DNA of 64,000 nt from the NCBI RefSeq assembly GCF_026340305.1, contig NZ_JAPEPI010000002.1:1054001-1118000 (forward strand), read 5' to 3'. This DNA is from Streptomyces sp. NBC_01381. GTDB taxonomy: Bacteria > Actinomycetota > Actinomycetes > Streptomycetales > Streptomycetaceae. Both the position numbers and the translations under genes were made by a program. Positions 27,472 through 63,954 of this stretch are shown piece by piece; positions within the stretch are counted from its first letter, which is position 1, and each line of letters opens with the position of its first letter. Under the pieces are notes generated by a model. The model was not told the origin of the DNA. It saw nothing but the letters and a program-made list of their open reading frames with translations, and searched no databases.

Positions 27472-28530
27472 ATGTCCACTGCTAGACGGGTGTCCTTGAG
27501 TGCCTTACTGGTCGCGGCGCTCGGCACCACCCTGTTACCGGCCGCGGCGCAGGCCGCGCCGCGGCAGCCGCCGGCGCCGAAGGTGGAGCGCGTGAGCGTC
27601 GCGGCCGACGGCACCGAGGCCGACGGGGCTTCCCGTACCGCGTCCATCTCGGGGAACGGCCGCTACGTCGCCTTCTACAGCGACGCGGAGAATCTGACCG
27701 AGGGTCATCAGGGGCCGTACGACTGGGCGTTCGTGAAGGATCTGGAGACCGGAGAGGTCAAGCGCCTCAAGAACTCCATGGCCGCCCCCGTGATCAGCGA
27801 CGACGGGCGGTACGCGGCGCACACCGGCTGGGGCACGCACGGCATCAACGTCTTCCTCACCGACCTGAGCACGGGGGAGATCAAGCAGATCGACGGCAGG
27901 GGCTTCAAGTACAGCGCGTCATCCCCGGCCATCAGCGCGAACGGCCGCTACGTCGCCTACGACCTGCAGCCGCAACACCCCGGAGACCCCCAGCGGGTCG
28001 AGGTCTACGACCGCGAGACGGACACCCGCGAGCTCATCAGCGACGGACCGCCGGACTCGGCCCGCGACATGGTGGATCCGTCCATCAGCGCCGACGGCCG
28101 CCACGTCGCCTACGAGGACAAGGGCACCGGCCAGGTCCGGCTCCGCGACCGCACCACGGGCAGCCTCACCCGGATCGACGACGGCACCCCGTCCAAGGTG
28201 GTGGAGGTCAGCGGACGGACAGTTGCGCTGAACTCGGCGGACGGCGCGTACGTACGCGATCTGCGCACCGGAAAGGTCCAGCGCTTCGCGGGCAAGGGCG
28301 CGCAGGCCGTCAGCCCGGACGGGCGCCAACTCCTTTACCGGGACGCCGAGTCGGACGTCGTCCTGCGCGATCTCCGCAGCGGACACGAGGTGACCGTCGG
28401 CCACGGCGGGGCGCGTGCGGGCGCGATCGCCGACAAGGGGAAGAGCGTCGTCTACAGCTCGGACGCCACGGACGTGGTGCCGGGCGACACGAACGGCCTG
28501 GGGGACGTCTTCAAGTGGACGGCGCGCTGA
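27472..28530 (+). CDS. Secreted TolB-like PD40 beta-propeller protein (first of three)
   Basis: This 352-residue protein has a Sec signal peptide (SLSALLVAALGTTLLPAAAQA) and then repeated blades with the motif S.(D/N)GRYVA(F/Y).S, each followed by DL.TG...L, typical of WD40-like PD40 repeats. TolB-like propellers usually mediate protein contacts. It lacks any enzyme domain. The ATG follows GGGGGAAG. It shares its end motif (VVPGDTNGLGDVFKWT) with the two genes that follow, so the three are paralogues from tandem duplication. Confidence 0.82.
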   Translation: MSTARRVSLSALLVAALGTTLLPAAAQAAPRQPPAPKVERVSVAADGTEADGASRTASISGNGRYVAFYSDAENLTEGHQGPYDWAFVKDLETGEVKRLKNSMAAPVISDDGRYAAHTGWGTHGINVFLTDLSTGEIKQIDGRGFKYSASSPAISANGRYVAYDLQPQHPGDPQRVEVYDRETDTRELISDGPPDSARDMVDPSISADGRHVAYEDKGTGQVRLRDRTTGSLTRIDDGTPSKVVEVSGRTVALNSADGAYVRDLRTGKVQRFAGKGAQAVSPDGRQLLYRDAESDVVLRDLRSGHEVTVGHGGARAGAIADKGKSVVYSSDATDVVPGDTNGLGDVFKWTAR

Positions 28531-28604
28531 TGCCGCGTCTCTCAGGGGATGAGCAGACCAGCACTCGGCCGAGCAGCATTCATCTGAACCGGGGGAACCA
28601 TGTC

Positions 28605-29921
28605 ATGAACGCCAGAACCAGCAAGAGAGCCGTCACAGGCCTGTGCCTGACCGCCGTGCTCGGCACGATGGGAGCGCTCCCCGCCCATGCCTCGGGCACC
28701 GCGGCGCCCAAGCCCCCGTGGACGGAGCGCATCAACGTCACCGCCGACGGGGCCCAGACCACCGACGCCCCCGGTGGACCCGCCGTGAGCGCCGACGGCC
28801 GTTACGCCGCCTTCGCCACGGCGCGCTCGCTCACCGGGCCCGACGACACCAACAACAGCAACGACGTGTACGTCAGGGACCTTCGCCGCGGCACGGTCGA
28901 GCGGGTCGGGCTTCAGGACTCCGGTGCCGAGTTCGCCGACGGCACGGGCGCCGCGCAGCTCAGCGACGACGGACGGTACGTGCTCTTCGCCGCCCGGCTC
29001 GGCAGCACGGACGACGGCTTCATCGACCGCTACTACCTGCGGGACCGCAGAACGGACAGGACCGAGCTGGTCAGCCTTTCCGACGACGAAAGGCCCGTCC
29101 ACGGCGACTACGCGGCACAGGCCAGGATGAGCGCGGACGGCCGCTACATCGCCTTCGTCTCCCGCCTGAAGGAGCACGGCGATTCCGCCGAGCGCACGCA
29201 GTACGGCGTCTATGTACGGGACCGCAAGGCGGGCACCACCCGGCTGATCAGCAAGGCCCCCGCCCCCGGCCAGGACGACCCCGGCTACGGCGTCACCGGT
29301 CTGGAGATGAGCGCCGACGGCAGCCGCATCACCTACGGCTACACGCAGTTCAGGCCCGGCTACGACCGGCAGGTGTACGCCTACGACCGGCGCCACGCCA
29401 CCACCGACCGGCTCGACCTCACACCCGCCGGCGCCGACATCGCGATGACCGTCCCCACCTTGAGCGGGAACGGGCGGACGATGGCCTTCTCCTCCTGGTC
29501 CGACGGCCTGGTCCCTGACGACACCAACGGGCAGAGCGACGTCTTCCTGCGCGATGTGCGCGACGGCACCGTCGAGCGGATCTCCCTGAACGCCGAGGGC
29601 GAGCAGACGGAGTTCGAGTCGCTCAACCCCCGCATCAGTGCCGACGGCCGACACGTGGTGTTCCACTCCTGGGACACCCACCTGGTCGAGGGGGAGACGG
29701 CACGCGGCACGCTCTTCATCCGCGATCTGCGCACGCGCACCAACCAGCGGGTGACCGCGGCGCACGACGGAGGCGAGAGCGACTGGCTCGACCTGCCGGA
29801 GGCCGAGGTGAGCGCCGACGGCGGCGCGATCGTCTTCGTGTCCCGCGCGGGCAACCTGGTCCCGGACGACACGAACACGTGGTGGGACGCCTTCGTGCGC
29901 CATATCGGGCCGAGCAGCTGA
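28605..29921 (+). CDS. Secreted TolB-like PD40 beta-propeller protein (second)
   Basis: This 438-residue paralogue has a signal peptide (AVTGLCLTAVLGTMGALPAHA) and about seven blades with SADGRY(A/I)AF and DDTN...DV(F/Y)(V/L)RD motifs. It ends with VPDDTNTWWDAFVRH, the same closing pattern as its neighbours. GGGGGAA before the ATG resembles the site before the first gene, and the gap of 74 bp suggests one transcript. Function is unknown beyond the likely extracellular binding role. Confidence 0.82.
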   Translation: MNARTSKRAVTGLCLTAVLGTMGALPAHASGTAAPKPPWTERINVTADGAQTTDAPGGPAVSADGRYAAFATARSLTGPDDTNNSNDVYVRDLRRGTVERVGLQDSGAEFADGTGAAQLSDDGRYVLFAARLGSTDDGFIDRYYLRDRRTDRTELVSLSDDERPVHGDYAAQARMSADGRYIAFVSRLKEHGDSAERTQYGVYVRDRKAGTTRLISKAPAPGQDDPGYGVTGLEMSADGSRITYGYTQFRPGYDRQVYAYDRRHATTDRLDLTPAGADIAMTVPTLSGNGRTMAFSSWSDGLVPDDTNGQSDVFLRDVRDGTVERISLNAEGEQTEFESLNPRISADGRHVVFHSWDTHLVEGETARGTLFIRDLRTRTNQRVTAAHDGGESDWLDLPEAEVSADGGAIVFVSRAGNLVPDDTNTWWDAFVRHIGPSS

Positions 29922-29950
29922 ACCACCAAGCCGAGCAGTTGAACCACCAA
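29909..29950 (+). repeat. 21-bp direct repeat spanning the stop codon of the second PD40 gene
   Basis: Two adjacent 21-bp copies (29909-29929 and 29930-29950) differ at a single base. Each contains GCCGAGCAG and GAACCACCAA. The stop codon of the second gene falls within the first copy. It is probably a slippage duplication. Confidence 0.85.
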
Positions 29951-29977
29951 CCACAAGGAACCACGGGGGACTTGAAC

Positions 29978-31237
29978 ATGTCCGGGAACCACCGCAAGCG
30001 CTTCGCCCTGACCGCCGCGGCCGTCGTCGCGGCCGTCACCGTCACCACCCTGCCCGCCGCCTTCGCCGCACCCGGCGCCGACGCCGCGCCCCGCACGGAG
30101 GGCGTCAGCGTCACGGCCGACGGCAAGGCGGCCAATGACCGCTCATCGGGGGCCGCCCTCAGCCGCGACGGCCGGTACGCGGCCTTCGACTCCGAGGCCA
30201 CCGACCTGACCGCAGGCGACACGAACGGTCTTCGCGACATCTTCGTACGCGATCTGCGCACCGGAAAGACGGAACGCATCGCCCTTGCGGGCCGCGAGGT
30301 CAGGGGCCCGTCCCTGAGCGCCGACGGCCGCTACGTCGCGTTCGTCTCCTCGCCCGCGGGCAACTACTCGGACTCCGACGTCCGGCTCTACGACCGCAGG
30401 ACCAAGAAGACCGAGCGCCTCGACGTCGAGCTGCCCGACGGCTTCGACGGCACCGGCGCGGGCGGCGTCTCGCTGAGCGCCGACGCCCGGTACGCCGTCT
30501 TCGACACCGACCACCGCGAGGACGGCGGCGTCGTCTTCCTGCGCGACCGCAAGACCGGCACGACGGAGCGGATCAGCCAGCCGAACGACACCTGGGAGCC
30601 GCGCGCCTCGCACTCGGCGACCGTCAGCGACGACGGCAGCCGCGTCGTCTACGCCCGCAACTACACCAACGGTCCGCGCGGCGACGACTGGAGCGACGTC
30701 TGGCTGCGCGACCGCACGACCGGCGAGCTGACGGAGATCGACCGCTCCCACGACGGCTCCGAGACCGAGAAGGAGTCCCTCGACCCGTCCATCAGCGGTG
30801 ACGGCCGCAAGGTCGTCTTTGAGTCACGCGACACGCATCTCGTCCCCGACGACAACGACGCCGCCTGGAACGTCTTCGTGCACGACATCGCCTCCGGCAA
30901 GAACCAGCGGATCCACGGCACCCAGGGCGGCCCCGGCGAGGCCTACACCCGCTCGCCCGCGATCAGCGCGAACGGCCGCCTGCTCACGTTCATGACGGAG
31001 CTCGCCGAGCCGGGCTCCGAGTACGGCAAGGAGTGGCCCGCCTACCTGCGGGACCTGAAGACCGGCACGACCACGCTGATCAGTCCGGACACCACGGGCG
31101 GCACGGCATCGGCCAAGGTCGCCCCCGGCGGCATCTCGGCGAGCGGCGCGCGGATCGCCTTCTACTCCGCCGACGCGACCCTGCTGAGCGGCGACACGAA
31201 CGACGGCTACGACGTCTTCGTACGCCACATGCGCTGA
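29978..31237 (+). CDS. Secreted TolB-like PD40 beta-propeller protein (third)
   Basis: This 419-residue paralogue has a signal peptide (FALTAAAVVAAVTVTTLPAAFA) followed by PD40 blades (SRDGRYAAF, SADGRYVAFVS, SGDGRKVVFES). The DTNG.RDIFVRDLRTGK motif near the first blade and DTNDGYDVFVRHMR at the end match the other two. The start is supported by a GGGGGAC element. A strong terminator 25 bp downstream closes the three-gene unit. Confidence 0.82.
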   Translation: MSGNHRKRFALTAAAVVAAVTVTTLPAAFAAPGADAAPRTEGVSVTADGKAANDRSSGAALSRDGRYAAFDSEATDLTAGDTNGLRDIFVRDLRTGKTERIALAGREVRGPSLSADGRYVAFVSSPAGNYSDSDVRLYDRRTKKTERLDVELPDGFDGTGAGGVSLSADARYAVFDTDHREDGGVVFLRDRKTGTTERISQPNDTWEPRASHSATVSDDGSRVVYARNYTNGPRGDDWSDVWLRDRTTGELTEIDRSHDGSETEKESLDPSISGDGRKVVFESRDTHLVPDDNDAAWNVFVHDIASGKNQRIHGTQGGPGEAYTRSPAISANGRLLTFMTELAEPGSEYGKEWPAYLRDLKTGTTTLISPDTTGGTASAKVAPGGISASGARIAFYSADATLLSGDTNDGYDVFVRHMR

Positions 31238-31290: not shown

Positions 31291-31340
31291 ATGGTGAGAC
31301 GGGGCAGCGCGGTGTGTGCGGGCTGTGGCAGGCTGCCACC

Positions 31341-31391
31341 GTGCTCTCGTTCGCCATGATTATTGGCAGCAGGCGCGCCGGTCCGCAGTGA
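31341..31391 (+). CDS. Ile-Ile leader peptide of cimA
   Basis: A short ORF from GTG 31341 (or ATG 31356) encodes VLSFAMIIGSRRAGPQ. The two adjacent Ile residues use ATT, a rare codon in such GC-rich DNA. The ORF ends just before an attenuator-type terminator in front of citramalate synthase, whose product leads to isoleucine. The match of codon and pathway supports a real leader. Confidence 0.6.
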   Translation: MLSFAMIIGSRRAGPQ

Positions 31392-31473
31392 CCGTCTCGT
31401 ACCACCATGTACGGGCGGACACCGTCGTCTTCAGACCCGCGCGCAAACCTCTCGTACCCACGAGGGGTTTTTT
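31381..31473 (+). promoter_or_regulatory. Transcription attenuator of cimA
   Basis: Four segments can be seen. Segment 1 (GTCCGC 31381-31386 and CGTAC 31398-31402) pairs with segment 2 (GTACG 31409-31413 and GCGGAC 31415-31420). Segment 2 can instead pair through GTACG with CGTAC 31453-31457 in segment 3. Segments 3 and 4 (CCTCTCGT 31448-31455, ACGAGGGG 31460-31467) make a terminator stem followed by six T. Segment 1 starts inside the last codons of the leader peptide. This is the classical ribosome-stalling layout. Confidence 0.7.
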
Positions 31474-31578: not shown

Positions 31579-33183
31579 ATGACGGAAACCAGCACACCCG
31601 ACGATGCGTTCCACGTCTTTGACACCACGCTGCGCGACGGCGCGCAGCGCGAGGGAATCAACCTGACCGTCGCGGACAAGCTGACCATCGCCCGGCACCT
31701 GGACGACTTCGGCGTGGGCTTCATCGAGGGCGGCTGGCCGGGTGCCAACCCCCGCGACACCGAGTTCTTCGCCCGCGCGCAGCAAGAGATCGACTTCCGG
31801 CACGCCCAGCTCGTGGCCTTCGGCGCCACCCGCCGCGCGGGGGCCAAGGCCGCCGAGGACCCGCAGGTCAACGCGCTCCTCGACTCCGGCGCCCCCGTCA
31901 TCACGCTCGTCGCCAAGTCCCATGACCGGCACGTCGAGCTCGCCCTGCGCACCACGCTTGAGGAGAACCTGGAGATGGTGCGCGACACCGTCTCCTACCT
32001 CGTCTCCCAGGGGCGGCGCGTCTTCGTCGACTGCGAGCACTTCTTCGACGGCTACCGCGCCAACCCCGAGTACGCCAAGTCCGTCGTACGCACCGCCGCC
32101 GAGGCCGGCGCCGACGTCGTCGTCCTGTGCGACACCAACGGCGGCATGCTCCCCGCGCAGATCCAGGCGATCGTGGCGACCGTCATCGCCGACACCGGCG
32201 CCCGGCTCGGCATCCACGCCCAGGACGACACGGGCTGCGCCGTCGCCAACACCCTGGCCGCCGTGGACGCGGGCGCGACCCACGTCCAGTGCACGGCCAA
32301 CGGCTACGGCGAGCGCGTCGGCAACGCCAACCTCTTCCCCGTCGTCGGCGCCCTGGAGCTGAAGTACGGCAAGAAGGTACTGCCCGAGGGCTCGCTGACC
32401 GAGATGACCCGCGTCTCGCACGCCATCGCCGAGGTCGTCAACCTCACCCCCTCCACGCACCAGCCCTACGTCGGCGTCTCGGCCTTCGCCCACAAGGCGG
32501 GCCTGCACGCCTCCGCGATCAAGGTCGACCCGGACCTCTACCAGCACATCGACCCGGACCTGGTGGGCAACCGGATCCGCATGCTCGTCTCCGACATGGC
32601 GGGCCGCGCCTCCATCGAGCTCAAGGGCAAGGAGCTCGGGGTCGACCTGGGCGACGACCGCGAGCTGGTCGGCCGGGTCGTGGAGCGGGTCAAGGAGCGC
32701 GAGCTCCAGGGGTACACGTACGAGGCCGCCGACGCGTCCTTCGAGCTGCTCCTGCGCGAGGAGGCGGAGGGCAGGCCCCGGCGCTACTTCCGCGTCGAGT
32801 CCTGGCGGGGCATCGTCGAGGACCGGCCCGACGGCACGCACGCCAACGAGGCGACGGTGAAGCTGTGGGCCAAGGGCGAGCGCATCGTCGCCACGGCGGA
32901 GGGCAACGGCCCGGTCAACGCCCTCGACCGGGCGCTGCGCGTCGGCCTGGAGCGGATCTACCCCCAGCTCGCCAAGATGGAACTGGTCGACTACAAGGTC
33001 CGCATCCTGGAGGGCAAGCACGGCACGTCCTCCACGACCCGCGTACTGATCTCCACCAGCGACGGTGACGCGGAGTGGTCGACGGTCGGCGTGGCGGAGA
33101 ACGTGATCGCGGCGTCGTGGCAGGCGCTGGAGGACGCGTACACCTTCGGCCTGCTGCGGGCGGGCGTCACGCCCGTGGAGTGA
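31579..33183 (+). CDS. cimA: Citramalate synthase
   Basis: This 534-residue protein has an HMG-CoA lyase-like TIM barrel (FDTTLRDGAQREGINLTVAD, metal-binding GIHAQDDTGCAVANTLAAVD) and a C-terminal LeuA-type regulatory domain (from about residue 380). Its length and sequence type fit the CimA branch rather than 2-isopropylmalate synthase. It condenses pyruvate with acetyl-CoA to (R)-citramalate, the entry to threonine-independent isoleucine synthesis. The C-terminal domain usually binds isoleucine for feedback control. The Ile-rich leader and attenuator upstream agree with this assignment. Confidence 0.9.
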   Translation: MTETSTPDDAFHVFDTTLRDGAQREGINLTVADKLTIARHLDDFGVGFIEGGWPGANPRDTEFFARAQQEIDFRHAQLVAFGATRRAGAKAAEDPQVNALLDSGAPVITLVAKSHDRHVELALRTTLEENLEMVRDTVSYLVSQGRRVFVDCEHFFDGYRANPEYAKSVVRTAAEAGADVVVLCDTNGGMLPAQIQAIVATVIADTGARLGIHAQDDTGCAVANTLAAVDAGATHVQCTANGYGERVGNANLFPVVGALELKYGKKVLPEGSLTEMTRVSHAIAEVVNLTPSTHQPYVGVSAFAHKAGLHASAIKVDPDLYQHIDPDLVGNRIRMLVSDMAGRASIELKGKELGVDLGDDRELVGRVVERVKERELQGYTYEAADASFELLLREEAEGRPRRYFRVESWRGIVEDRPDGTHANEATVKLWAKGERIVATAEGNGPVNALDRALRVGLERIYPQLAKMELVDYKVRILEGKHGTSSTTRVLISTSDGDAEWSTVGVAENVIAASWQALEDAYTFGLLRAGVTPVE

Positions 33184-63451: not shown

Positions 63452-63523
63452 TGGCCTATGGTGTAATTGGCAGCACGACGGTTTCTGGTTCCGTTAGTCT
63501 AGGTTCGAGTCCTGGTAGGCCAG
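63452..63523 (+). tRNA. tRNA-Gln (CTG)
   Basis: The 72-nt gene folds as a cloverleaf with acceptor arms TGGCCTA / TAGGCCA, anticodon loop TTCTGGT (anticodon CTG) and T loop GGTTCGAGTCC. CCA is not encoded. Confidence 0.93.
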
Positions 63524-63544
63524 CTCGCAGAGCTTATCTGCAAC

Positions 63545-63617
63545 GCCCCCGTTGTGTAGCGGCCTAGCACGCTGCCCTCTCAAGGCAGTAGCGCCGGTTC
63601 GAATCCGGTCGGGGGTA
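63545..63617 (+). tRNA. tRNA-Glu (CTC)
   Basis: The 73-nt gene has acceptor arms GCCCCCG / CGGGGGT with a G-U first pair and anticodon stem-loop CTGCC-CTCTCAA-GGCAG (anticodon CTC). It differs from the two later copies in its anticodon stem, with a T-A pair in place of C-G. Confidence 0.94.
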
Positions 63618-63679
63618 CAGATCCTTCCCATGGAAGCAGTCCGGGTCGCACCCACTGCCGCCGATGCAGGATCGCTAGG

Positions 63680-63752
63680 GCCCCCGTTGTGTAGCGGCCT
63701 AGCACGCCGCCCTCTCAAGGCGGTAGCGCCGGTTCGAATCCGGTCGGGGGTA
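63680..63752 (+). tRNA. tRNA-Glu (CTC), second copy
   Basis: It has the same acceptor arms GCCCCCG / CGGGGGT and anticodon stem-loop CCGCC-CTCTCAA-GGCGG. It is identical to the copy at 63882. Confidence 0.95.
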
Positions 63753-63778
63753 CGCAAGGTCTAGCTGGTCTAGACCAG

Positions 63779-63850
63779 TGGGCTATGGTGTAATTGGCAA
63801 CACGACGGTTTCTGGTTCCGTTGTTCTAGGTTCGAGTCCTGGTAGCCCAG
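63779..63850 (+). tRNA. tRNA-Gln (CTG), second copy
   Basis: Acceptor arms are TGGGCTA / TAGCCCA. Compared with the copy at 63452, one acceptor pair has changed on both sides (C-G to G-C), so pairing is kept. The anticodon loop TTCTGGT is the same. Confidence 0.93.
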
Positions 63851-63881
63851 CGCAGTCCAAGCAGTGCAGATGGACAAGCTA

Positions 63882-63954
63882 GCCCCCGTTGTGTAGCGGC
63901 CTAGCACGCCGCCCTCTCAAGGCGGTAGCGCCGGTTCGAATCCGGTCGGGGGTA
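63882..63954 (+). tRNA. tRNA-Glu (CTC), third copy
   Basis: This 73-nt gene is identical to the copy at 63680, with anticodon CTC. It is the last tRNA of the five-gene cluster and is followed by a terminator. Confidence 0.95.

Follow-up and report, generated by a model that had tools for sequence, protein, structure and literature searches.

A putative isoleucine-responsive transcription attenuator precedes the citramalate synthase gene cimA in Streptomyces and other actinomycetes

Overview

The stretch of DNA analysed here, 64,000 nucleotides from Streptomyces sp. NBC_01381 (hereafter the window), carries the citramalate synthase gene cimA. Upstream of the gene lie a short leader ORF with two isoleucine codons, a covarying hairpin that we call P1, and an intrinsic terminator that adjoins P1 without a linker (Table 1). 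Sequence comparison and folding models suggest, with a probability of roughly three in four, that these parts control cimA as a ribosome-mediated transcription attenuator responding to charged tRNA-Ile, with P1 as the antiterminator. Under such control cimA is most likely transcribed only when isoleucine runs short. An earlier note on this DNA had already proposed an isoleucine-sensing, translation-dependent attenuator at this place. That proposal is strongly supported by conservation, whereas the mechanism the note gave for it is not. The note was right about the downstream gene, about two rare ATT codons in the leader and about a terminator with six T.

Table 1. Features of the cimA leader region (window positions)
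Feature	Position	Strand	Basis or detail
-10-like hexamer CAGGCT	31329-31334	+	6 nt upstream of leader GTG
Leader ORF MLSFAMIIGSRRAGPQ*	GTG 31341 to TGA 31389-31391	+	read from sequence
Control codons ATT ATT (Ile-Ile)	31359-31364	+	homologue comparison and window codon usage
P1 hairpin, 5' strand GCGCGCCGGTC	31373-31383	+	covarying helix, RNAalifold unaided
Variable hairpin within P1, holding the CGTAC/GTACG 1:2 pairing	31387-31425	+	
P1 hairpin, 3' strand GACCCGCGCGC	31434-31444	+	covarying helix, RNAalifold unaided
Intrinsic terminator	31445-31473	+	hairpin 31445-31470 (stem 31445-31455 with 31460-31470); six T 31468-31473
cimA, citramalate synthase	31579-33183	+	TIGR00977 equivalog, 647 bits (cut-off 450)

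Leader ORF and isoleucine control codons

The codon ATT is rare in the window, where it accounts for 6 of the 551 isoleucine codons in 37 ORFs (about 1%) and for none of the 20 in cimA. We compared 155 distinct Streptomycetales cimA upstream regions, together with 42 elements from other actinomycete families. All 155 distinct Streptomycetales elements kept at least one isoleucine codon at the control position, and the first control codon was ATT in 153 of them. The second was variable (ATT, ATC, ATG, ACC, ACG or AAC), and some elements have a single isoleucine codon, which counts against an isoleucine attenuator. On the same strand, the neighbouring ORFs 28515-29921 and 29879-31237 contain repeated short VSADGRYVAF-type motifs and, judged by eye, probably encode related secreted propeller-like proteins.

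The start of the leader lies upstream of its internal ATG, because some homologues read ACG at that place. A -10-like hexamer, [TC]ANNNT, was found in 135 of the 155 distinct homologues, compared with 8 of 155 when the search was displaced by 20 nt as a control, and its distance to an in-frame GTG or ATG was 6 nt in 112 and 7 nt in 22 of the 135 carriers. Outside Streptomycetales the hexamer was present in 32 of 39 elements, and a motif resembling a Shine-Dalgarno sequence was absent in all 155 distinct homologues. This arrangement suggests that the transcript is leaderless and begins at or adjoining GTG 31341.

In six homologues (L015, L063, L068, L071, L084 and L108) a one-base deletion after the isoleucine codons shifts the leader frame. 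These frameshifted leaders (IIGSSAPVRSDR* and similar) lose the peptide while the P1 RNA sequence stays intact, and other leaders end in ..IIG* immediately 5' of P1, indicating that the RNA and the isoleucine codons are kept rather than the peptide. Minimal leaders such as MALPLIIA* and MHRTAIIIN*, with the stop codon at P1, were found across the class.

P1 hairpin and adjoining terminator

RNAalifold recovered both P1 and the terminator without guidance. Across 59 representative sequences, changes on both sides were seen at 6 of the 10 P1 pairs and 98.1% of cells could pair, and the score of the whole structure was reached by none of 500 shuffles. A second set, base-anchored and drawn mostly from other families, comprised 35 sequences and was assembled by hand from folded elements, with long centres shortened in two rows; 24 of its cells were double-changed, whereas shuffling gave a mean of 6.4 and a maximum of 12. 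Covariation across cimA leaders, which the earlier note had named as a check, was found for P1, a hairpin the note had not named; its proposed CGTAC/GTACG switch is not conserved. The variable hairpin inside P1 is reduced or missing in many relatives.

Among 40 freely folded elements from outside Streptomycetales, the linker between P1 and the terminator measured 0 nt in 32 and 1 nt in 8; in the Streptomycetales set the zero linker was built in, since the scan demanded that P1 touch the terminator. The isoleucine codon lies 10-17 nt 5' of P1 in the 155 distinct elements (14 nt in 120, 13 nt in 27), and the stop codon ranges from -3 to +35 relative to P1. We folded these elements with the ribosome masked and its leading edge set 15 nt from the P-site, which is the general value for E. 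coli. P1 formed in 99% with the ribosome at the isoleucine codon and in 0% once it stood at the stop codon. The analysis shows which parts are present and how they are spaced, and it shows a P1 that tolerates an isoleucine stall but not a ribosome at the stop. These findings include the general hallmarks of a ribosome-mediated attenuator: a leader ORF with control codons, an intrinsic terminator and, in folding, a structure that depends on the position of the ribosome.

Proposed mechanism

When isoleucine is sufficient, the ribosome would pass the ATT codons, pause at the stop codon and cover the 5' strand of P1. P1 could then not form, the terminator would form, and transcription would end before cimA. 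When isoleucine is short, we infer a stall at ATT that places the leading edge of the ribosome 1-2 nt 5' of P1 and leaves the 5' strand free, and P1 would fold once its 3' strand has been transcribed. Folded P1, probably together with the adjoining ribosome, would hinder completion of the terminator inside RNA polymerase, and cimA would be transcribed. This prevention of termination by P1 is, above all other steps, the one that we infer.

No base pairs shared by P1 and the terminator were found, and equilibrium folding gave the full terminator in every ribosome state, which counts against the mechanism. P1 could act as antiterminator only by kinetic or steric means. The terminator stem starts where P1 ends, so that folded P1 would keep the terminator from completing: with this geometry, no unpaired RNA would be left to carry P1 clear of the polymerase during completion of the terminator. 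This steric block is an argument from geometry.

Other pairings were considered and rejected. Extension of P1 into the terminator (GG:CC upstream) looks plausible by eye in ilvB and leuS, but several cimA leaders lack the GG, so it is not conserved. A helix between the 3' strands of P1 and the terminator (AGACCC:GGGTCT) is absent in L134 and the L138 group, and one between the 5' end of the leader (CTCTCG) and the 3' strand of the terminator is not conserved. Conserved pairing of nucleotides 5' of P1 with the terminator 5' strand was not found either (0% in the stalled state).

Alternative explanations

The earlier note had described a classical overlapping 1-2-3-4 attenuator made of CGTAC (31398-31402), GTACG (31409-31413), CCTCTCGTAC (31448-31457) and ACGAGGGG, in which the end of the leader overlaps segment 1 and the segments allow mutually exclusive hairpins. 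These segments are present in the window, and a short-lived 2:3 is possible while the terminator is incomplete. However, the stop codon sits just 5' of segment 1, and a ribosome stalled at ATT (edge about 31371) leaves segment 1 uncovered, so that segments 1 and 2 stay paired and the probability of 2:3 is about 0. Folding of the leader in the window gave 2:3 solely for a ribosome at the stop codon while the terminator was incomplete, which is the wrong sense. Over the 155 distinct homologues, upstream pairing of segment 3 above 0.5 occurred in 0% at the isoleucine stall and in 43% at the stop. In most homologues the sequence is CTCTCGCAC with GTACG, or the segments are lacking, and many members from other families possess only P1 with a short loop. 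The repeats are thus real, but as a functional switch they have inverted polarity and are not conserved, and the trp/his-type arrangement, with a 2:3 hairpin that shares a terminator strand and forms on stalling, was not found in the cimA leader; we regard it as very improbable. We give similarly poor odds to an inverted logic, in which P1 favours the terminator and finished translation of the leader favours readthrough. Nothing on paper keeps P1 and the terminator from coexisting, and folding yields both in the stalled state; the window and some relatives also allow 2:3 while the ribosome is at the stop. Against this, cimA would fall under isoleucine shortage, conservation of 2:3 is lacking, and the related ilvB1 leader of M. 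tuberculosis has the opposite polarity (PMC13236596).

It is also conceivable, though unlikely, that P1 mainly pauses RNA polymerase inside the terminator 5' strand and so synchronises it with the ribosome, the antitermination step lying elsewhere. A conserved YG step in AGACCTCTCG follows the end of P1 by 9-10 nt, an arrangement that would resemble hairpin-stabilised pauses, and the AGACCTCTCG stretch is conserved beyond what pairing needs. Pausing alone leaves the stall/stop geometry around P1 unexplained, however, and no other antiterminator is conserved; pausing at P1 and antitermination by P1 may coexist. The C-terminal RRAGPQ of the leader presumably resembles the SecM arrest motif, and RAGPQ is common in Streptomycetaceae leaders, which might point to an arrest peptide that stalls ribosomes independently of isoleucine. 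Frameshifted relatives and other families nevertheless retain P1 and isoleucine without RAGPQ, and the P1 strand accounts for the nucleotides, which leaves this explanation a negligible chance.

Distribution of the element

Searches at genus, family and order level recovered cimA in 149 of 150, 149 of 150 and 118 of 119 genomes, respectively. The sample also included 80 named loci. All these, together with further retrieved stretches, supplied the upstream regions; seven regions that could not be anchored on cimA were left out (L135, L136, L137, L141, L150, L151 and L152). A helix ending at the AGACCTCTCG terminator was present in nearly all upstream regions. Four failed the scan, among which L143, L153 and L189 carry the element on reading; it is absent from L149, upstream of a second, divergent cimA-like copy. 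In genus g7, the cimA match of six genomes (G290, G294, G303, G309, G315 and G321) has one internal TGA.

A covariance model of the element matched 156 of 297 genomes and 69 of 114 genera of the class. When the 297 genomes were also searched with TIGR00977, 148 had both element and cimA, 8 the element only, 89 cimA only and 52 neither. The element lay 25-230 nt upstream of cimA on the same strand in 72 of the 73 pairs with both positions listed, which were matched via locus labels transcribed by hand, and 38 of 42 elements examined in other families precede cimA. We also read 20 cimA regions that the model had missed: 7 show a leader by eye (L280, L282, L284, L285, L287, L290 and L291) and 13 show none, so the tally of elements is a lower bound. 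Conservation of the element across the class goes far beyond chance. In some families cimA has no leader, which counts against the proposed attenuator.

Several observations were made along the way. Families f20 and f27 (L273-L276, L277-L279, L288, L289) have cimA without a leader in the genomes read, and in f27 cimA directly follows the end of a gene that by eye resembles a branched-chain aminotransferase. In L264 and L266, elements with Val-Val and Leu-Val-Ile codons precede ilvB, and TIGR00977 found no cimA in the genus. L268 has an element with an isoleucine codon (ATT ACG TAG, with the contig end just upstream) before a gene whose best matches are threonine ammonia-lyases, below curated cut-offs; threonine ammonia-lyase is the other route to 2-ketobutyrate. 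A second element (MFALVIIM*), L258, occurs in the genome that also holds L257; no gene was recognised downstream, and it converges on an acyl-CoA ligase-like gene.

Significance

If the proposal holds, the committed step of the citramalate route is under isoleucine-specific regulation across much of the actinomycetes, bacteria that matter to both industry and medicine. The signature is recognisable (isoleucine codons, a stop codon at P1, and P1 abutting the terminator) and also describes the leaders of ilvB and leuS in this genome. We tentatively extend the proposal, at somewhat less than even odds, to a class-wide isoleucine attenuator whose antiterminator and terminator share no pairs, in which P1 and the stalled ribosome block by abutment, and whose layout also serves ilvB, leuS and occasionally a threonine ammonia-lyase gene. 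The cimA leader is a test case for whether attenuation can be achieved by two neighbouring hairpins that have no pairs in common, a question that bears on the unclear behaviour reported for Streptomyces leaders.

Comparison with known systems

With Rfam 15, only tRNAs reached the gathering score in the window, and no match up to E = 1 appeared in four loci. Five consecutive tRNA genes occupy 63452-63954 on the + strand. No description of a cimA attenuator was found in the literature searched, a scope that did not include Lopatovskaya et al. 2010 (cited in PMC10272879), and cimA is not among the leaders listed for S. lividans (PMC8079986) or in the 2005 survey of Actinobacteria (PMC1262725). 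Within Rfam 15 and this literature, the earlier note's impression of an undescribed attenuator holds, and the cimA leader is apparently a class-wide member of ribosome-mediated attenuation that had not been described.

In the enterobacterial trp and his attenuators, ribosome position selects termination or readthrough, and the 2:3 and 3:4 hairpins overlap. The choice by ribosome position is alike at cimA, whereas no 2:3 hairpin is conserved there. Upstream of trpE in the same genome (L198), no T run of at least 5 was found in the approximately 600 nt scanned.

For ilvB1NC of M. tuberculosis, it has been reported with data that a ribosome at the stop codon masks the antiterminator and a stalled ribosome lets it form (PMC13236596). 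That leader shares with cimA branched-chain codons, an intrinsic terminator and the same stall/stop polarity; it differs in serving acetohydroxyacid synthase, in its LVVI run and in its mutually exclusive hairpins, whereas P1 and the terminator of cimA abut without shared pairs. cimA is absent from that paper (PMC13236596).

In ilvBNC of C. glutamicum the antiterminator is adjacent to the terminator (PMC11857589). Like cimA, this leader and the ilvB-II motif have a near-leaderless ORF, a hairpin right after the control codons and an adjoining terminator, but the gene and codons are different, and neither the shared boundary GCC trinucleotide nor the proposed anti-antiterminator is conserved at cimA (PMC11857589, PMC10272879). 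Of the features of this C. glutamicum-type ('fast') attenuator, the cimA leader thus has the adjacent antiterminator-like hairpin right after the control codons, with a presumed antiterminator role, and no shared boundary trinucleotide was found.

The Streptomyces ilvB and leuS leaders are likewise built of control codons followed by a GC-rich hairpin that ends at the terminator base; they differ from cimA in their genes and in their Val/Leu/Ile or Leu codons (PMC1262725, PMC8079986). Codon changes in the S. coelicolor ilvB leader had no effect on regulation (PMC1262725), which counts against our model. In the genome studied here, ilvB (L194, leader MRTRILVLGKRVG*) and leuS (L202, leader MRAVRLLLSGPR*, its layout read by eye) have the same succession of control codons, GC-rich hairpin and a terminator at the hairpin base.
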